The notes below the pieces were generated by a model. The model was given only the letters and a program-made list of their open reading frames with translations, made no database searches and was not told the origin of the DNA. This document shows positions 48,457-60,620 of a stretch of DNA of 64,000 nucleotides, in pieces (the stretch's first letter is position 1; every line of letters starts with the position of its first letter). The translations under genes were made by a program, and so were the position numbers. Source of the stretch: Nocardioides pocheonensis (GTDB lineage: Bacteria > Actinomycetota > Actinomycetes > Propionibacteriales > Nocardioidaceae); NCBI RefSeq assembly GCF_003725535.1, contig NZ_RJSF01000040.1, positions 773,477 through 837,476 of the forward strand, written 5' to 3'.

Positions 48457-49793
<1,337 letters not shown>

Positions 49794-49812
49794 GAAATCG
49801 TGGAGGACACTC

Positions 49813-51045
49813 GTGACCGCAGCGCCCACCCTGCCCGCCAACTTCGACCCGACGGACCCGAGTCTGTGCGAGGAGAGGATCCCGCTCCAGGAGTTCCTCG
49901 AGCTCCGGAAGACCGCCCCGGTGTACTGGGTCGAGCAGGCGCCGGAGGCGCGCGCCGGCTTCAACGACACGGGCTTCTGGGCGATCAGCAAGCACGCCGA
50001 CATCGCCGCGGTGTCGAAGAACAGCAAGGACTTCTCGGCCAACGAGAACGGCGTGATCATCCGCTTCGCCGCCGACATGACCCGCGAGCAGGTCGAGCTG
50101 CAGAGCGTCATGCTGGTCAACCAGGACCCGCCGGACCACACCAAGACCCGCCAGATCATCAGCCGCGGCTTCACCCCGCGCGCGATCGGCGCCCTGCACG
50201 AGGTGCTGGTCGAGCGGGCGAACAAGATCGTCGACGACGCGCTCGCCAAGGGTGAGGGCGACTTCGTGTTCGAGGTGGCCGCCGAGCTGCCGCTCCAGGC
50301 GATCGCCGACCTGCTCGGCGTACCGATGGAGGACCGGCGCAAGCTGTTCGACTGGTCCAACCAGATGCTCGCGTACGACGACCCGGAGTACGACGCGCAG
50401 CCCGACGTCGCGGCCGCCGAGATCCTGGGGTACGCGATGGCGCTCGCCGAGGAGCGCGCGAAGGACCCCAAGGACGACATCATCAGCAAGCTGGTGACCG
50501 CCGACGTCGACGGCCACAAGCTCGGGGACGACGAGTTCGGCTACTTCGTGATCCTGCTGGCCGTGGCCGGCAACGAGACCACGCGCAACGCGATCACCCA
50601 CGGCATGAACGCCTTCTTCGAGAACCCCGACCAGTGGGAGCTGTGGAAGCGTGAGCGCCCCTCGACGATGGTCGACGAGGTGATCCGCTGGGCGACCCCG
50701 GTCACCGTCTTCCAGCGCACCGCGCTGAACGACGTCGAGATCGGCGGCCAGCCGATCAAGAAGGGCGACCGCGTCGGGCTCTACTACGCGAGCGGCAACC
50801 ACGACGAGCAGGTCTTCGAGAACCCCGACAAGTTCGACATCCTCCGCGACCCGAACCCGCACCTGGCCTTCGGTGGGCACGGCGCGCACTACTGCATCGG
50901 TGCGAACCTCGCTCGCCTCGAGGTCGAGGTGATCTTCAACGTGATCGCCGACCGGATGCCGAACATCGTCAAGACCGGCGAGCCCCGCCGGCTGCGCCAC
51001 GCCTGGATCAACGGCATCAAGGAGCTCCCGGTCAAGTACGCGTAG
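49813..51045 (+). CDS. cyp125: Cytochrome P450, CYP125-like (steroid C26/C27 hydroxylase)
   Basis: 410 residues from the GTG at 49813, which has GGAGG 6 bases ahead; the frame opens at 49786 but there it covers an operator. The I-helix oxygen motif is AVAGNETTRNAI, the ExxR helix lies ahead of the heme loop, and the heme-binding loop FGGHGAHYCIGANLARLE contains the cysteine ligand. The C-terminal HAWINGIKELPVKYA is CYP125-like. CYP125 oxidises the terminal carbon of the cholesterol side chain so that beta-oxidation can begin. The stop codon lies within a 41-base repeat. Confidence 0.9.
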   Translation: MTAAPTLPANFDPTDPSLCEERIPLQEFLELRKTAPVYWVEQAPEARAGFNDTGFWAISKHADIAAVSKNSKDFSANENGVIIRFAADMTREQVELQSVMLVNQDPPDHTKTRQIISRGFTPRAIGALHEVLVERANKIVDDALAKGEGDFVFEVAAELPLQAIADLLGVPMEDRRKLFDWSNQMLAYDDPEYDAQPDVAAAEILGYAMALAEERAKDPKDDIISKLVTADVDGHKLGDDEFGYFVILLAVAGNETTRNAITHGMNAFFENPDQWELWKRERPSTMVDEVIRWATPVTVFQRTALNDVEIGGQPIKKGDRVGLYYASGNHDEQVFENPDKFDILRDPNPHLAFGGHGAHYCIGANLARLEVEVIFNVIADRMPNIVKTGEPRRLRHAWINGIKELPVKYA

Positions 51046-53516: not shown

Positions 53517-54587
53517 TCAGTCCGGTAGGGGCGGGACCTGGAGCGCCACCAGCGCGATGTCGTCGCGGGGCTCCTGCCCCTGGAAGGCGAGGACGTCGTC
53601 GAGCACGCGGCCGATGAGCGGCTCGGCGGTGTCGACGCTCTCGTGGAGCAGCCGCATGAGGCGTTCCTCGCCGTAGAGCTCCGAGCCCCGACGGCCGTCG
53701 GTGACGCCGTCGGTGTACAGGAGGACGGTCGTCCCCGGTCGCAGCTCGAACCGGATGTCCTCGTAGGCGACGGACGGGAACGCACCGACGAGGTGGCCCG
53801 GCTCCCCGACGACGCGGGGGACCTTGTCGGTGTCGAGCACGATCGCCGGCGGGTGGCCGCCGGCCGCCATCGCGACGTCCCACCAGTCCCCGATCCGGCG
53901 CAACCGGAGGACCGCGGCGGTGCAGAAGCGCTCGCTCGGGTGGTCCAGGACGACCTGGTTGAGCTGGCTCAGGATGGTGGCGGGGCTGGTCTCGGAGATC
54001 GCCAGGGCGCGGATCGTGTGCCGCACCAGCGTGGCGACGGCTGCGGCCTCGACGCCCTTGCCGGCCACGTCGCCGATCGTGACGACCCAGTCGCTGGCGG
54101 AGACGGCGAACACGTCATAGAAGTCCCCGCCGATCTCGTCGCCCGTGCCCGCTGGCCGGTACGCCGTCGCGATGTCGAGACCGTCGATCCACGGGTTCCG
54201 CGGCGGCATCAACGTCTCCTGCAGGGTCCGTGCCAGCAGGGTCATGCGCTTCTCGGCGTCCTCGGCGCGCTTCTTGGCGGCGAGCAGCTCACGCTCGTAC
54301 CTGCGCCGTTCGGTGGCGTCGAAGACGGCGACCCGGGTGATGCCGGGCGCCCCGTCCTCAGCCCGGTCCAGGACCGCGTTGACGAGGACCGGAAGGCGGC
54401 TGCCGTCGTGGCGCAGCAGCTCCAGCGCGACCTCGCTGACCTGGCCGTCGAGGAGGAGCAGCGGCCGGAAGTGCGTCTCGTGGAAGAGCTTCGACCCGGC
54501 CGCGAGCAGGTCGATGAACCGAACCTGCCCGACGACGTCCCGGGACTCGTGACCGGTCCAGGTCAGGAACGTGGCGTTGGCCTTCAC
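53517..54587 (-). CDS. rsbP: PAS-domain PP2C phosphatase, RsbP-like
   Basis: 356 residues from the GTG at 54587. However the open frame continues to 54716 and encodes about 40 more residues (ALLVDDPEALYERAPCGYLS, then IDAAGLVVKANATF) that complete the PAS domain. No ATG, GTG or TTG lies in that stretch; an ATC at 54707 or a CTG are the only candidates. The PAS runs to about residue 90, then a coiled linker, then PP2C motifs (GDEIGGDFYDVF, IGDVAGKGVEAA, YTDGVTDGR, RDDIALVAL). RsbP dephosphorylates RsbV under energy stress. The RsbQ-like gene overlaps the extended part. Confidence 0.88.
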   Translation of the reverse strand: MKANATFLTWTGHESRDVVGQVRFIDLLAAGSKLFHETHFRPLLLLDGQVSEVALELLRHDGSRLPVLVNAVLDRAEDGAPGITRVAVFDATERRRYERELLAAKKRAEDAEKRMTLLARTLQETLMPPRNPWIDGLDIATAYRPAGTGDEIGGDFYDVFAVSASDWVVTIGDVAGKGVEAAAVATLVRHTIRALAISETSPATILSQLNQVVLDHPSERFCTAAVLRLRRIGDWWDVAMAAGGHPPAIVLDTDKVPRVVGEPGHLVGAFPSVAYEDIRFELRPGTTVLLYTDGVTDGRRGSELYGEERLMRLLHESVDTAEPLIGRVLDDVLAFQGQEPRDDIALVALQVPPLPD

Positions 54588-54708
54588 GACGAGCCCGGCG
54601 GCGTCGATGCTCAGGTAGCCGCAGGGTGCACGCTCGTAGAGAGCCTCGGGGTCGTCGACGAGCAGCGCCTTCTCGAACGCCGCCCTGGCCTGGTCGTGGC
54701 CGGTGATG

Positions 54709-55509
54709 TCAGGCCCTCACCTTGAGGAAGTCGTTCATGGCGTCGACGACCTCGCCGGGCGCGCTGAGGTGGGGGCAGTGCCCGGTGGCGTCGAGCACGA
54801 CCAGGCTGGCGTCGGCGAGGTGGTCGGCGACGTAGCGGCCGACCTCGGGCGACGCGATGATGTCCTCGCGGCTCTGCAGCACGAGGCAGCGGGCCGACAC
54901 GGCGGGCAGGTCGGCCCGGTTGTCGGCGAGGAACGTCGCTCGCGCGAAGCCCTCGGCGATCGCGGGGTCGACCGTGCAGAAGCTCGCCCGCAGCTCCTCG
55001 CCGAGCTCGGGACGATCGGGGTTCCCCATGATGGCCGGGGCCATCGACGCGGACCAGCCGAGGTAGTTGCCCGCGAGGGAGTCGAGCAGGTTGTCGATGT
55101 CGGCGGGCTCGAAGCCACCGTGGTACCCGGCGTCGTCGAGGTACCGGGGCGAGGGCCCGATCATGACGAGGGCGTCGAAGAGGTCGGGCGCGGCGACCTC
55201 GGCGAGCGCACCGATCATCGCGGAGACCGAGTGCCCGACGAAGACCACGTCGCGCAGGCCCAGCGCGCGGCAGATGCGGACCACGTCGTCGGCATAGCCG
55301 TCCAGCGAGGCGTACCGGTCGGGGTCGTAGGGAGCGCGCGCCCCGCCCGCACCCACGAAGTCGAACAGGACGACCCGGTAGCGGTCCTCGAACTGGGGCG
55401 CGACGTGGCGCCACATGTTCTGGTCGCAGCCGAAACCGTGGGCGAACACCATCACCTGTCCGTCGGGCCGGCCGCGGTCCGTGACGTTGAACGCCTCCAC
55501 CGGGTGCAT
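54709..55509 (-). CDS. rsbQ: Alpha/beta hydrolase, RsbQ-like
   Basis: 266 residues from the ATG at 55509. Catalytic triad S94 (VGHSVSA), D216 and H244 (TGHCPH) matches the spacing of Bacillus subtilis RsbQ, and HGFGCDQNMWRHVAPQFED and GPSPRYLDD are very close to that protein. RsbQ is required with the PAS phosphatase RsbP to turn on general stress signalling when energy falls, probably by giving a small ligand to the PAS domain. The related KAI2 receptors share the fold. Its TGA is immediately upstream of the phosphatase frame. Confidence 0.9.
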   Translation of the reverse strand: MHPVEAFNVTDRGRPDGQVMVFAHGFGCDQNMWRHVAPQFEDRYRVVLFDFVGAGGARAPYDPDRYASLDGYADDVVRICRALGLRDVVFVGHSVSAMIGALAEVAAPDLFDALVMIGPSPRYLDDAGYHGGFEPADIDNLLDSLAGNYLGWSASMAPAIMGNPDRPELGEELRASFCTVDPAIAEGFARATFLADNRADLPAVSARCLVLQSREDIIASPEVGRYVADHLADASLVVLDATGHCPHLSAPGEVVDAMNDFLKVRA

Positions 55510-55588
55510 CCGCCGATCGTAGGCCACGCCGCCGCGGGCGGCCGGTGCTCGAACCGGCCGGAGGTCTCGGTCGGACCTCGGTCGGGCT

Positions 55589-55816
55589 TCAGCCGGGCTC
55601 CGGGTCGCGGCGCTCGAAGTCGCGGGTGATCGCCTTGAGCAGGTGCGCCGGCAGCACCAGCTCGCCGGACCGGTGCCGGGAGAGCAGCTCGGCGAAGAAC
55701 ATCTGCGGATCGGCGGAGGCGAGCTCGAAGAGGTCGTGGGACCCGTCACCGGCGAGGTGGGAGCTCAGGAACTCGGCCAGCTCCAGGCGCAGCGAGGACC
55801 GCTCGTCCGTTCCCAT
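55589..55816 (-). CDS. Small acidic hypothetical protein
   Basis: 75 residues, probably helical: LRLELAEFLSSHLAGDG, then DPQMFFAELLSRHRSGELVLPAHLL. It lies between the STAS and RsbQ-like genes on the same strand, with a 15-base gap to the first and 79 to the second. Its place inside the stress module suggests an accessory role. No family was recognised, and coding is supported mostly by position. Confidence 0.55.
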   Translation of the reverse strand: MGTDERSSLRLELAEFLSSHLAGDGSHDLFELASADPQMFFAELLSRHRSGELVLPAHLLKAITRDFERRDPEPG

Positions 55817-55831
55817 GGTCGCGATGCTAGG

Positions 55832-56176
55832 TCAGAGCCCGACCGACGCGCGCCACTGGTCGTGCGACGGATGCACCGTGAAGACCAGGTCGAGCTTGGT
55901 GATCGTGAAGAGCCTGAGCAGCACGGGGCTGTCGCAGATGATCGCGAACGAGCCGCCGGCGGCGTACGCCTTGCGGCGGCCGCCGATGAGAGCGCCGAGG
56001 GCGGTCGAGTCGAGGAACTCCGTGCCCGAGAGGTCGACCACGAGGTTCGCCCGGCCTTGCGAGATCAGGTCGCCGATCCGGTTGCGCAGGGTCGTGTACG
56101 ACGCCAGGTCGATCTCTCCCTGCGGCGCGAGGATGTCGTACTCACCCTCGGTGCTGTGCCCGATCTCCAGCTCCAT
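55832..56176 (-). CDS. rsbV: STAS-domain anti-sigma factor antagonist, RsbV-like
   Basis: 114 residues from the ATG at 56176. The STAS signature VVDLSGTEFLDSTALGALIGG carries the phosphorylatable serine S57, at the RsbV position. In its unphosphorylated form such a protein binds an anti-sigma kinase and frees the sigma factor. RsbQ and RsbP-like proteins downstream would reactivate it. The kinase and sigma factor are not in the window. The gene is upstream of the others, probably in one transcript. Confidence 0.88.
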   Translation of the reverse strand: MELEIGHSTEGEYDILAPQGEIDLASYTTLRNRIGDLISQGRANLVVDLSGTEFLDSTALGALIGGRRKAYAAGGSFAIICDSPVLLRLFTITKLDLVFTVHPSHDQWRASVGL

Positions 56177-56249: not shown

Positions 56250-57419
56250 CTAGTTCGAGGGCTTGTCGGCCCCGACCACCCACATCGCGAAGAACTGCGA
56301 GCCACCTCCGTAGGCGTGGCCGAGTGCCTTGCGGGCACCGTCGACCTGGTGCTCGCCCGCCTCGCCCATGACCTGCAGGGACGCCTCGGCGAAGCGGATC
56401 ATCCCGCTGGCGCCGATCGGGTTCGAGGACAGCACGCCCCCGCTCATGTTCACCGGGATGCGTCCACCCAGCGCGGTCTCGCCGGCCTCGGTGAGCTTCC
56501 AGCCCTCGCCCTCGGCCGCGAAGCCGAGGTTCTCCAGCCACATCGGCTCGAACCACGAGAACGGCACGTAGATCTCGGCGCAGTCGATCTCGTCGATCGG
56601 GCTGGTGATCCCGGCCTGCTTCCAGAGCGCGGCAGCCGCCTCGCGACCGGCCTGCGGGTTCACCTGGTCGCGCTCGGCGGCGGTCGTCGGCTCGGAACGC
56701 ATCTGGGTGCCGTGGATCCACGCCGGGTTCGTGACGCCGGAGGTCCCGACCGCACTCTCCGAGGCGATCACCATCGCGCAGGCGCCGTCGGAGGACGGGC
56801 AGGTCTCGTCGTACCGGATCGGATCCCAGAGCATCGTCGAGGCGAGCACGGACTCGACCGTGGTGTTCTCGTTGCGCAGGTGGGCGTAGGGGTTCTTGAG
56901 CGCGTTCTGGCGGTCCTTGGCCGCGACGATCGCGCCGATGTTCGTCGGTGCGCCGGAGCGCCGGATGTAGGAGCGCACGTGCGGCGCGAAGTAGCCGCCC
57001 GCACCGGCGTGCACCGGCATGATGAACGGCACCGGCACCGACAGCGCCCACATCGCGTTGGACTCCGACTGCTTCTCGAACGCGACCGTCAGGACGCGCT
57101 CGTGCACGCCCGCCTGCACCAGGGACGCCGCCACGATGGCGGTCGAGCCGCCGACCGAACCCGCGGTGTGCACGCGCAGCAGCGGCTTGCCGGCGGCGCC
57201 GAGCGCGTCGGCGAGGTAGAGCTCGGGCATCATCACGCCCTCGAACAGGTCGGGCGCCTTGCCGACGACGACCGCGTCGATGTCGGCGAAGGTCAGCTGG
57301 GCGTCGGCCAGGGCCCGGTCGACCGCCTCGCGGAGGAGGCCGGCGATCGAGACGTCCTTGCGGGCGGCCTGGTACTTGGTCTGGCCGACGCCGATGACCG
57401 CTGCGGGAACCTTCGCCAT
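56250..57419 (-). CDS. ltp3: Thiolase-fold lipid-transfer protein, Ltp3-like
   Basis: 389 residues. The SCP-x/thiolase-like fold is shown by VPAAVIGVGQTKYQ, HTAGSVGGSTAI where the nucleophilic cysteine of thiolases is replaced, NMSGGVLSSNPIGASGMIRF and HAYGGGSQFFAMWV. The length fits Ltp3. In mycobacteria Ltp3 is next to Ltp4 and a DUF35 protein in the cholesterol regulon, as here. Related Ltp2/DUF35 complexes cleave the short side chain by retro-aldol chemistry. The role of Ltp3 itself is not certain. Confidence 0.87.
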   Translation of the reverse strand: MAKVPAAVIGVGQTKYQAARKDVSIAGLLREAVDRALADAQLTFADIDAVVVGKAPDLFEGVMMPELYLADALGAAGKPLLRVHTAGSVGGSTAIVAASLVQAGVHERVLTVAFEKQSESNAMWALSVPVPFIMPVHAGAGGYFAPHVRSYIRRSGAPTNIGAIVAAKDRQNALKNPYAHLRNENTTVESVLASTMLWDPIRYDETCPSSDGACAMVIASESAVGTSGVTNPAWIHGTQMRSEPTTAAERDQVNPQAGREAAAALWKQAGITSPIDEIDCAEIYVPFSWFEPMWLENLGFAAEGEGWKLTEAGETALGGRIPVNMSGGVLSSNPIGASGMIRFAEASLQVMGEAGEHQVDGARKALGHAYGGGSQFFAMWVVGADKPSN

Positions 57420-57420
57420 C

Positions 57421-58482
57421 TCAGTTGCTCCCCTTCTTCGAAGCCAGCGTGCAGACCAGGTTCTGCTGCAGCACCGGGCCGGACGTGCTGTGGGCCAGGG
57501 CCTTCTCGGACTCTCCGGCCCAGATCCTGCGGGACGCCTCGCCGATCCGGTTGAGGCCCGCGGTGAACATCGGGTTCGCGGTCAGCGCGCCGCCCGACGG
57601 GTTCACGGTCACGTCGCTGGCCAGGCCGAGCGCCTCGCGCAGGATGATCTCCTGGTGGCTGAACGGTGCGTGCAGCTCGGCGAGGTCGACCCCGGCGGTG
57701 CCGGCGGCGCGGCCGGCGAGGGCGGTGCTCGTCGAGGTGGTCAGGTCGCGGGCGTTCAGCGCGATCGGCTCGATCCGGTGCTCGAACCCGGTGATCCAGG
57801 CGGGCGTCTCCCGGGCCTCGTAGGCCTTGTCGCCGGCGGCGATCACGATGGCCGCGGCCCCGTCGGAGACCGGCGCGATGTCCCAGCGGCGCAGCGGGTC
57901 GGCGTACATCGGCTGGGCCAGCACGTCGTCGACGGAGGTCGCGCCCTTGCGGATCGCCCACTCGTTCGCCGCCGCGTCGGTCATCGACCGCGCCACCACC
58001 TCCGCGGTCGCCTTCTCGTCCCACAGGCCCTTCTCCAGGCCCTCGCGGGCCTGCAAGCCGTTGAGGGAGACGGTGTCGGGCCACAGCGGCTGGACCGTGT
58101 AGGGGTCGAGCTGGAGGGACAGGGTCCGGCGCAGCACGCCGGCGGAGGCCTTCCCGAACCCGTAGACGGCGGCCGTGTCGATCTCGCCGGTCTGGATCTT
58201 GACCCAGGCCTCGTAGAGCGCCCAGGCGGCGTCCATCTCGACGTGCGACTCCATCACCGGCGGCAGCGCGCCGATCGCGTCCACGGCGGAGACGAACGAG
58301 AACGACCGCCCGGCCAGGTAGTCGCTGGACCCGGAGCACCAGAAGTCGATGTCCTTCTTGGTCCAGCCGGTCTGCTCGTAGAGCTCGCCGAAGATCGGCA
58401 CGAGCAGCTCCACGCAGGTGGGGGATCCGTCCATCTCCTTCATCTGCCGCTGGCTGAAGGCAACGACTGCAACGTCTCTCAT
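57421..58482 (-). CDS. ltp4: Thiolase-fold lipid-transfer protein, Ltp4-like
   Basis: 353 residues from the ATG at 58482, very close to the mycobacterial Ltp4 length. The start MRDVAVVAFSQRQMKEMDG, then GVDLAELHAPFSHQEIIL and NPSGGALTANPMFTAGLNRI, fits the family. It ends 2 bases before the Ltp3-like start. The two proteins probably form a hetero-complex with the DUF35 protein encoded upstream. Substrates are steroid-CoA intermediates by analogy. Confidence 0.87.
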   Translation of the reverse strand: MRDVAVVAFSQRQMKEMDGSPTCVELLVPIFGELYEQTGWTKKDIDFWCSGSSDYLAGRSFSFVSAVDAIGALPPVMESHVEMDAAWALYEAWVKIQTGEIDTAAVYGFGKASAGVLRRTLSLQLDPYTVQPLWPDTVSLNGLQAREGLEKGLWDEKATAEVVARSMTDAAANEWAIRKGATSVDDVLAQPMYADPLRRWDIAPVSDGAAAIVIAAGDKAYEARETPAWITGFEHRIEPIALNARDLTTSTSTALAGRAAGTAGVDLAELHAPFSHQEIILREALGLASDVTVNPSGGALTANPMFTAGLNRIGEASRRIWAGESEKALAHSTSGPVLQQNLVCTLASKKGSN

Positions 58483-58498
58483 ATCTCTTCTCCGGTTC

Positions 58499-58520
58499 CT
58501 GAGCCTGTCGAAGGGCTCAG
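58499..58520. repeat. Short hairpin repeat CTGAGCCTGTCGAAGGGCTCAG
   Basis: Seven-base arms CTGAGCC/GGCTCAG flank an 8-base loop. It lies at the end of the DUF35 gene, overlapping its stop codon, and before the ltp4-like gene. Core gagcctgtcgaagg is a common dispersed motif in high-GC actinobacteria. Confidence 0.6.
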
Positions 58521-59491
58521 AGGTGCTGCTTGTAGGTCTCGTACTCCGCGTCCGGCTCACCGGTCGGGCGGAAGTACTTGATGTTGTTGAGGTCGGTGGT
58601 CCACTCCTCGCGGGGCTTCCAGACCGCCTCGACCCGCATGCCCATGCGCACGTCGGCGGCGTCGCACTCGAGGATCAGGTGCAGGAACGCGATGTCCGCG
58701 CCGTCGAGCAGCACGTACGCCGAGACGTAGGGGATCGGGATCTTCTGGCCCTGGAACGGCACGTTGACGATGCAGAACGTCGTGACCGTCCCGCGGTCGG
58801 GCAGCTCGATCTCCTCGGCGGTCGGGACGCCGTCGACCGGGCAGGCGCCGCGCGGCGGCACGTAGACCTTCTGGCACTTCGGGCAGCGCTGGCCAAGGAT
58901 CCGGCCCTCGGCGAGACCGCGGAAGAACTTCGACTCCTCGGGTGACGCGGCGTACATGTACTCCAGGTTGACCGGGCTGATGATCCCCGTGATCTCGGGC
59001 TCGCCCGTGGTCTCCACCGACGCGGACGGCGCGGGTTCCTCGTCGCCGACCGGCTCGAACCAGGCGATGTCGCGGATCGTGCCCGTCGGCTCGTCCGCCC
59101 AGCGCACCTTGACGCGCATGCCGGTGCTCATCGCCGCGGGGGAGTCGACCGAGACGGCGTGCAGGATCGGCGCGTCGGAACCGTCGAGCAGCACGTGCGC
59201 GAACGCGAACGGCCGGTCGAGCGGCTGGTCCTTCACCGGCTCCGTCACCCACGTCCAGGTCTGCACCACTCCGGCGGACGACACGGGAACCAGTTCGGTC
59301 ACCGCGGCGTGCGTCACCGGGTCGAACTCCGGCGGCGGCACGACGACGCGGCCGTCGGCGAGCACGCCGCCGAGCACCTGCTGCTGGGCGAGCGCGGACA
59401 TGAACCGGGAGAGCACGGGGCCGAGCGAGCGGGTGTAGTCGAACTCGACCTTCATCGGTGCACTGAGCACGCGCGATTCACTGGGGGCCAT
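58517..59491 (-). CDS. DUF35 OB-fold protein, double domain
   Basis: 324 residues from the ATG at 59491; a GTG six codons earlier lies inside the operator and an ATG at 59455 is also possible. Two DUF35 units are in tandem. The second has the zinc ribbon CPKCQKVYVPPRGACPVDG (four cysteines with the upstream ones) and OB-fold TVTTFCIVNVPFQGQKIPIPY. The first half (ALAQQQVLGGVLADGRVVVPP) has lost the cysteines. DUF35 proteins bind thiolase-fold Ltp partners and present acyl-CoA. The gene heads the operon with ltp4 and ltp3. Confidence 0.88.
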   Translation of the reverse strand: MAPSESRVLSAPMKVEFDYTRSLGPVLSRFMSALAQQQVLGGVLADGRVVVPPPEFDPVTHAAVTELVPVSSAGVVQTWTWVTEPVKDQPLDRPFAFAHVLLDGSDAPILHAVSVDSPAAMSTGMRVKVRWADEPTGTIRDIAWFEPVGDEEPAPSASVETTGEPEITGIISPVNLEYMYAASPEESKFFRGLAEGRILGQRCPKCQKVYVPPRGACPVDGVPTAEEIELPDRGTVTTFCIVNVPFQGQKIPIPYVSAYVLLDGADIAFLHLILECDAADVRMGMRVEAVWKPREEWTTDLNNIKYFRPTGEPDAEYETYKQHL

Positions 59492-59501
59492 GGCACCGAA
59501 G

Positions 59502-59515
59502 TGAAACACGTTCTA
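59502..59515. promoter_or_regulatory. KstR-type operator, DUF35/LLM divergent region
   Basis: TGAAACACGTTCTA fits TnnAACnnGTTnnA exactly. It lies 10 bases upstream of the DUF35 start and 58 upstream of the LLM oxidoreductase start, so it could control both. Confidence 0.78.
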
Positions 59516-59573
59516 GTTCTGGAGGCAAGGAACCGGTAGGGTCGCGCTGCTCGACGACCGATGGAGGAGTGCC

Positions 59574-60620
59574 GTGAAGCTGGGACTGCAACTGGGCTAC
59601 TGGGGGGCGCAGCCCCCGCAGGGCGTGGGCGAGCTGGTCGCCGCCGCCGAGGACGCAGGTTTCGACGCGATCTTCACCGCGGAGGCCTGGGGCTCCGACG
59701 CCTTCACCCCGCTGGCGTGGTGGGGGCGCGAGACCTCGCGCGTGCGCCTGGGCACCTCGATCGTGCAGATGTCGGGTCGTACGCCGACCAGCATCGCGAT
59801 GCACGCGCTCACGCTCGACCACCTCTCCGGGGGCAGGGTCGTGCTCGGCATGGGCGTCTCCGGGCCCCAGGTAGTCGAGGGCTGGTACGGCCAGCCCTTC
59901 GCCAAGCCGCTGGCGCGCACCCGCGAGGTCGTGGAGATCATCCGCAAGGTGCTCGCCCGCGAAGCGCCCGTCACCAACGACGGCCCGCACTACCCGCTGC
60001 CCTACGCGGGTCCCGGCTCGGTGGGGCTCGGCAAGCCGCTGAAGCCGATCGTGCACCCGCTGCGGGCCGACATCCCGATCTGGCTGGGGGCCGAGGGGCC
60101 GAAGAACGTCGCCCAGACCGCCGAGATCGCCGACGGGTGGATCCCGATCTTCTACACGCCGCGGTCAGCGGGCATGTACCAGCCGTGGCTGGACGAGGGC
60201 TTCGCCCGACCCGGCGCCCAGCGGACCCGGGCGGACTTCGAGATCGCGGCCACCTGCCACCTGCAGATCACCGAGGACAACGGGCCGGCGAAGCAGGCGG
60301 TCATCGACGCGATGAAGCCCTACGTGTCGCTCTACATGGGCGGCATGGGTGCCAAGGAGCAGAATTTCCACAAGCAGGTGTTCGAGCGGATGGGCTACGG
60401 CGACCTCGCCGACGAGGTCCAGCGGCTGTACCTGTCGGGGGAGAAGGACAAGGCCACGTCGCTGATCCCGGACGAGCTCGTCGACGACATGCACATCATC
60501 GGCGACGCCGGCTACGTCAGGGAGCGGGCCGCGGAGTGGGAGGCCACCGGCGTGACCACCCTGCTGCTCAGCCTCGGCTCGCCCGACGACATCCGGCGGA
60601 TCGCCGAGGTGCTCGCCTGA
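59574..60620 (+). CDS. LLM-class F420-dependent oxidoreductase
   Basis: 348 residues from the GTG at 59574 with GGAGG ahead. Luciferase-like fold: LGLQLGYWGAQPPQGVGELV at the start, TSIVQMSGRTPTSIAMHALTLDHLSGGR and LGMGVSGPQVVEGWYG are family segments. The size and the place next to the DUF35, ltp4 and ltp3 genes equal the mycobacterial cholesterol-regulon LLM gene. It would use F420H2 or FMN to reduce or oxidise a steroid-CoA. The exact reaction is not known. Confidence 0.88.
   Translation: MKLGLQLGYWGAQPPQGVGELVAAAEDAGFDAIFTAEAWGSDAFTPLAWWGRETSRVRLGTSIVQMSGRTPTSIAMHALTLDHLSGGRVVLGMGVSGPQVVEGWYGQPFAKPLARTREVVEIIRKVLAREAPVTNDGPHYPLPYAGPGSVGLGKPLKPIVHPLRADIPIWLGAEGPKNVAQTAEIADGWIPIFYTPRSAGMYQPWLDEGFARPGAQRTRADFEIAATCHLQITEDNGPAKQAVIDAMKPYVSLYMGGMGAKEQNFHKQVFERMGYGDLADEVQRLYLSGEKDKATSLIPDELVDDMHIIGDAGYVRERAAEWEATGVTTLLLSLGSPDDIRRIAEVLA

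Follow-up and report, generated by a model that had tools for sequence, protein, structure and literature searches.

RsbQ-RsbP modules and the locus of Nocardioides pocheonensis

Adjacent genes for an RsbQ-type hydrolase and a PAS domain protein constitute a described module. The paper that describes it (Nadezhdin 2011; PMC3183031) counts 45 such neighbouring pairs; in Gram-positive bacteria, Streptomyces among them, the output domain is PP2C, and the PAS domains lack a DIT motif. The term 'start codon' does not occur in this paper. A module of this kind is present in Nocardioides pocheonensis (GCF_003725535.1, contig NZ_RJSF01000040.1; a single draft assembly of 50 contigs). The window, i.e. 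the whole stretch of DNA analysed here, comprises 64,000 nucleotides, and coordinates without a contig name refer to it. On its minus strand, a STAS gene, a 75-codon open reading frame (ORF), an RsbQ-like alpha/beta hydrolase (54709..55509) and an RsbP-like PAS-PP2C phosphatase (53517..54707, 396 codons and a stop) follow one another in this order. The phosphatase frame possesses no canonical start codon ahead of its PAS domain. Judging from the sequence, we consider it fairly probable that the phosphatase is translated, at a low level, from the codon ATC at 54705..54707 by re-initiation coupled to the end of the hydrolase gene.

The organisation resembles the RsbQ-RsbP pair of Bacillus subtilis (PMC3183031): the hydrolase lies directly upstream of a protein that starts with a PAS domain, continues with a predicted long helix and ends in a PP2C output, and a DIT motif is lacking. 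In contrast to RsbP, in which the same text places the conserved cysteine at residue 10, the cysteine of the window protein is found at residue 29, with about 19 extra residues before it. The Streptomyces pairs of RsbQ and a PAS-phosphatase named in that text consist of the same two genes in the same order. The presence of a STAS gene nearby and the lack of a canonical start of the phosphatase are further differences from the B. subtilis pair, and the Streptomycetaceae pairs collected here differ from the window in that each of their 60 usable junctions has ATG or GTG close to the stop. A near-cognate start is known from infC of Escherichia coli, which begins with AUU. The candidate start of the phosphatase resembles that of infC in being a codon of the kind that initiation factor 3 (IF3) discriminates against; unlike infC, the phosphatase gene is located directly behind an upstream stop.

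Coding N-terminus of the phosphatase

The phosphatase frame is closed upstream by an in-frame TGA (54717..54719, minus strand), after which the codons GGG CCT GAC ATC ACC GGC follow. No ATG, GTG or TTG occurs in this frame between TGA 54719 and GTG 54587. The GTG (54585..54587, minus strand), the first canonical codon, specifies residue 41, which falls within the second predicted PAS strand. According to an earlier note on this DNA, which was made from the letters and their translations, the PAS domain begins about 40 residues ahead of this first usable GTG, and base signature, homolog identity and the first strand of a predicted structure all agree with that statement. The GC fractions at the three codon positions of the 40 codons before the GTG are 0.75/0.45/0.93, compared to 0.74/0.45/0.96 in the rest of the gene. 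The nearest homolog belongs to an uncultured Phycicoccus (L061) and is identical at 24 of 34 aligned residues before the GTG; for residues 41-133 the count is 60 of 93, and for the remainder of the protein 162 of 257. Since their base signature is like that of the remaining gene and the homolog shares 24 of 34 residues, the 40 codons preceding GTG 54587 are evidently coding.

In the AlphaFold model of the phosphatase (four-sequence alignment, mean pLDDT 85.3, pTM 0.62, residues 1-20 poorly predicted), the first two PAS strands, A and B, span residues 30-34 and 39-43, respectively. Given these predicted positions, a protein started at the GTG would lack strand A and have a disrupted strand B.

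Candidate start codons

Only two near-cognate codons are found in the phosphatase frame ahead of the APCG motif, ATC 54707 and CTG 54665. The ATC, at offset +4, begins two bases past the hydrolase stop (TGA C ATC) and is the most likely start, while the CTG (54663..54665, minus strand, offset +46) is the second candidate, with a Shine-Dalgarno (SD) duplex of -5.3 kcal/mol at a long distance. The SD-like stretch AGGTGAGG (54715..54722, minus strand) is located within the end of the hydrolase gene, approximately 6 nt before the ATC, and forms a predicted duplex of -8.2 kcal/mol with an assumed anti-SD sequence, on which all SD energies given here are based. The median for 106 canonical codons at homologous junctions, a set that predates the final survey, draws several codons from a single locus and also includes codons that are not starts, is -3.3 kcal/mol, and 93% of these codons have a weaker or equal duplex. 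A start adjacent to the upstream stop, here 2 nt after it, is a feature of termination-coupled gene pairs, and the two genes may be such a pair. The junction shows no unusual RNA folding (z -0.78), and a scan for promoters and terminators found nothing.

Two homologous loci (L046 and L040) carry GTG at exactly the offset of the ATC, and in L046 the number of codons to the conserved AF is the same as well. The earlier note had taken ATG or GTG at the same place in homologs as a sign of an extra base in this assembly. Such a codon is present in these two loci, but it comes with no frame shift.

Junctions in homologous loci

The main survey covered 100 loci, i.e. 77 of the 80 rows from the family search (the window included, three contig-end rows left out), three from a second search and 20 from a class-wide sample, of which rows duplicating the family search or lacking a locus were left out. 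Nine loci were dropped: L035, L080, L099, L125, L131 and L148 contain no hydrolase match in the stretch, and in L091, L100 and L126 the phosphatase match begins after the APCG motif. Canonical codons were sought between -30 nt relative to the hydrolase stop and the APCG motif, and the codon nearest to the stop is not necessarily the one used. According to these criteria 88 of the 91 usable junctions possess ATG, GTG or TTG near the hydrolase stop, the nearest being GTG in 50, ATG in 35 and TTG in three; in 44 of the 91 it is located at -1 (NTGA).

A second set, read as Streptomycetaceae, comprises 67 loci (27 new ones and 40 of the further rows), seven of which were dropped: five lack a hydrolase match, and in two the hydrolase frame is interrupted by an early stop. 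A canonical codon is present in all 60 usable junctions, the nearest at +2 in 49 of them. Among all loci surveyed, the junction of L136 reads TAG-GTG and thus has a canonical start codon. To judge from these sequences, close coupling appears to be usual at rsbQ-rsbP junctions, with the nearest canonical codon mostly at -1 or +2. In L091, L111 (G326) and L086 (G208) the phosphatase match is late or out of frame with the N-terminus, and these relatives presumably contain broken genes or assembly frameshifts.

A second lineage and the distribution of the pair

The three junctions without a canonical codon are those of the window, L088 and L092. L088 and L092 represent two sister species, the phosphatases of which are 95% identical. 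Both possess CTG at -25 and CTG at -1 (CTGA), and upstream as far as -120 nt no canonical codon is present. The three loci nearest to them, L093, L096 and L097 (70-76% identical), contain CTGA too, plus ATG or GTG at -25, and as these canonical codons are kept, use of CTG would be required only in L088 and L092. The codon at -25 consists of the hydrolase Ala-Trp codons read in another frame; where it is canonical (L093, L096 and L097), its SD match is poor (+0.4 to -1.7 kcal/mol). For the CTG at -1, the SD duplexes of the five loci range from -3.2 to -8.6 kcal/mol, the strongest (-8.6 kcal/mol) being those of L088 and L092.

In a midpoint-rooted tree of the hydrolase with 94 rows, these five loci form one clade (100/99) from the family of the window, the Nocardioidaceae. 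The window is sister to Phycicoccus (100/99) and stands with it in a separate, well-supported group (100/98). As the window and the CTG clade fall into separate groups of the tree as drawn, they would represent two independent departures from a canonical start; a label test on the tree, which compared six labelled rows, gave one change and has no bearing on this independence.

A relative of the phosphatase at E 1e-60 is found in 79 of 341 genomes of the family (own genome included). The class-wide sample contains the phosphatase at 1e-80 in 40 of 394 genomes (own and same-family genomes included), and in the family of the Phycicoccus genome it reaches this threshold in one of 186, the Phycicoccus genome itself. 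The distribution of the pair (53517-55509) is thus patchy and transfer-like, and either horizontal transfer or repeated loss could account for it.

Probable initiation at ATC and alternative explanations

If the phosphatase is indeed started at ATC 54707, ribosomes would finish the hydrolase at its TGA, be retained there through the strong SD match that the final hydrolase codons provide, and re-initiate with fMet at the ATC. We infer re-initiation and a low yield from the junction and from published tests of start codons. After a selection in Mycobacterium smegmatis with an SD present, ATG accounted for 20.5%, GTG for 22.2%, TTG for 28.7%, ATT for 9.8%, ATC for 0.2% and CTG for 0.03%; the 0.2% of reads for ATC is described there as low, yet above background (PMC4633059). 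N-terminal proteomics of E. coli recovered one ATC among 17 upstream starts (PMC13245402), and a study of gene overlaps quotes the related codon ATT at approximately 0.3% of ATG in E. coli (PMC10666635). In E. coli carrying mutant initiator tRNAs, ribosomes were shown to re-initiate from non-AUG codons, a process in which IF3 takes part (PMC2268962). By analogy, ATC is able to initiate, but weakly.

Several points weigh against a start at the ATC. In the tests cited here, ATC is a very poor start, and in an in vitro study weak third-base pairs are excluded by IF3 (PMC10158994), which speaks against AUC with a normal initiator anticodon. The SD energies depend on the assumed anti-SD. The nearest homolog, that of Phycicoccus, has ATG at +10 and at +25 and none at +4, so that the GTGs of L046 and L040 leave +4 unproven as the ancestral start. 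Finally, none of the 23 other genomes of the genus that were searched contains a relative of the phosphatase (E 1e-60) or of the hydrolase (E 1e-40).

The earlier note had proposed three mechanisms for the junction: a start at a rare codon (ATC 54707 or a CTG), a frame shift that yields a hydrolase-phosphatase fusion, and a one-base sequencing error. Among them the rare-codon start at the ATC is the best supported. Initiation at CTG 54665 would keep the APCG motif and produce an N-terminus about as long as that of B. subtilis RsbP, in which the equivalent cysteine is residue 10 (PMC3183031); its SD is poorly spaced, the hydrolase stop is 46 nt away, and in the mycobacterial test CTG ranks below ATC (PMC4633059), all of which makes the CTG a highly improbable rival. 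The GTG at 54587 would be the first codon accepted by a plain ORF list. With a truncated PAS domain, a start inside strand B of the model, a weak SD of -2.5 kcal/mol and 40 coding codons left untranslated, it is very doubtful as the start. If ribosomes shifted frame by +1 at GCC TGA C, hydrolase and phosphatase would be fused, and the TGA C context together with the SD-like stretch upstream resembles the release factor 2 site. Among homologs, however, the relative frame of the two genes is 0, 1 or 2, and the hydrolase stop precedes the PAS motif in 151 of 151 usable junctions; re-pairing from GCC to CCT would presumably be poor as well. A programmed frameshift with fusion was rejected on the varying frame and the invariable stop, and we regard it as hardly credible.

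The idea of a sequencing error divides into two cases. A gained or lost base in the assembly was rejected, as L061 shares the relative frame of the window and, counted by eye, has its conserved TTC at the same offset behind the stop (+34); the same frame and offset in this nearest homolog make an indel error unneeded and unlikely, and a frameshift unlikely too. A substitution is a different matter, for a single change converts ATC into ATG, the sequence comes from one draft assembly, and the living strain might have ATG or GTG at 54707-54705 with nothing unusual about it. Substitution errors are rare in assembled genomes, both reading frames are otherwise intact, and the second lineage lacks a canonical start in two species; a miscalled base is therefore unlikely. 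No likelier is a recent loss of the canonical start, after which a decaying phosphatase would be made in traces only. The weakness of ATC as a start fits such a loss, as does the codon at +25, AGG in the window and ATG in Phycicoccus, one substitution apart. Against it stand the intact frame of 396 codons, an N-terminal region conserved like the rest, and the good SD ahead of the ATC.

Genes of the module and their surroundings

RsbQ of B. subtilis is the closest solved structure to the hydrolase (1wom_A, E 1.6e-82, residues 18-264). The earlier note had assigned the hydrolase to RsbQ by S94, D216 and H244, and the protein carries all three, which we take to be the Ser-Asp-His triad of RsbQ. 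Its description of the adjoining gene as an RsbP-like PAS-PP2C phosphatase likewise holds: the output domain matches SpoIIE/PP2C (PF07228, E 8.8e-44), the PAS domain matches the S-box model TIGR00229 over its cut-off (E 4.5e-9), and the Pfam models PAS_9 and PAS match below their cut-offs. A hydrolase match accompanies the phosphatase in 94 of the 100 loci examined (window counted). The end of the PAS domain bears no DIT motif; the window reads FDATERR, and three aligned homologs read FDATERR or FDARERR. In the predicted structure, a single long helix (residues 131-165) is the candidate for a coiled-coil linker. The positions C10, L13, L48, Q53, F55, C56, Y59, E72 and P86 of the RsbP-PAS class correspond to C, L, L, K, F, H, H, E and P in the window, a correspondence of spacing only, with the register chosen by hand and one residue inserted between 13 and 48; without the inserted residue, six of the nine do not fit.

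The STAS gene (55832..56176, minus strand) encodes an RsbV-like anti-anti-sigma protein with the serine of a DST motif, according to its translation, Pfam and further family models, and the motif. The earlier note had reported a STAS gene with such a serine upstream of the hydrolase; gene and serine are present, but the gene is not adjacent, as the 75-codon ORF (55589..55816, minus strand) lies between the two. This ORF belongs to no family: it has no Pfam match and, besides itself, no match at E 0.01 among the collected homologous loci. STAS genes are located upstream of the pair on the same strand in L032, L042, L044, L086 and L087, and directly behind the phosphatase in several loci of the family read as Streptomycetaceae (L142 and others). 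Their occurrence beside the pair in several homologous loci points to a STAS protein as the usual target.

Elsewhere in the genome, a SigBFG-type sigma factor is found over cut-off (C34:20501-21172), and a weak HATPase_c_2 match, below cut-off, lies just upstream of it on the same strand (C34:21400-21636). The latter is a possible RsbW candidate, which may pair with the STAS protein of the window. The gene content supports an RsbQ-RsbP energy-stress sensing module with an RsbV-like STAS protein nearby, a kind of module that is already known. Going by its family, the hydrolase would signal to the phosphatase through the PAS domain of the latter; the phosphatase would then remove the phosphate from a STAS protein, and a SigB-type sigma factor would thereby be released from its kinase. 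The surrounding regions 49786-51045 and 56250-60620 contain cytochrome P450-like, thiolase-like and luciferase-like genes and, as read from the translations, have the look of a lipid or steroid catabolism cluster.

Implications

The module itself is ordinary and its start is unusual; the recurrence in two lineages raises the start above a curiosity, and it stays a lead. We tentatively suggest, as a possibility with rather less than even support, that the rsbQ-rsbP junction has moved to near-cognate starts at least twice, to ATC in the window and to CTG in the Nocardioidaceae clade. In both cases the start would lie behind or overlap the hydrolase stop, with an unusually strong SD (-8.2 and -8.6 kcal/mol) where no canonical codon is left. 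Re-initiation might then make the identity of the start codon nearly free, or else it might hold the amount of phosphatase well under that of the hydrolase and make it IF3-sensitive, its level rising when initiation is less strict. Should the ATC and CTG starts prove real, standard gene prediction would cut such phosphatases short within their sensory domain, and the family would provide a natural test of whether re-initiating ribosomes accept start codons that are rejected in fresh initiation.

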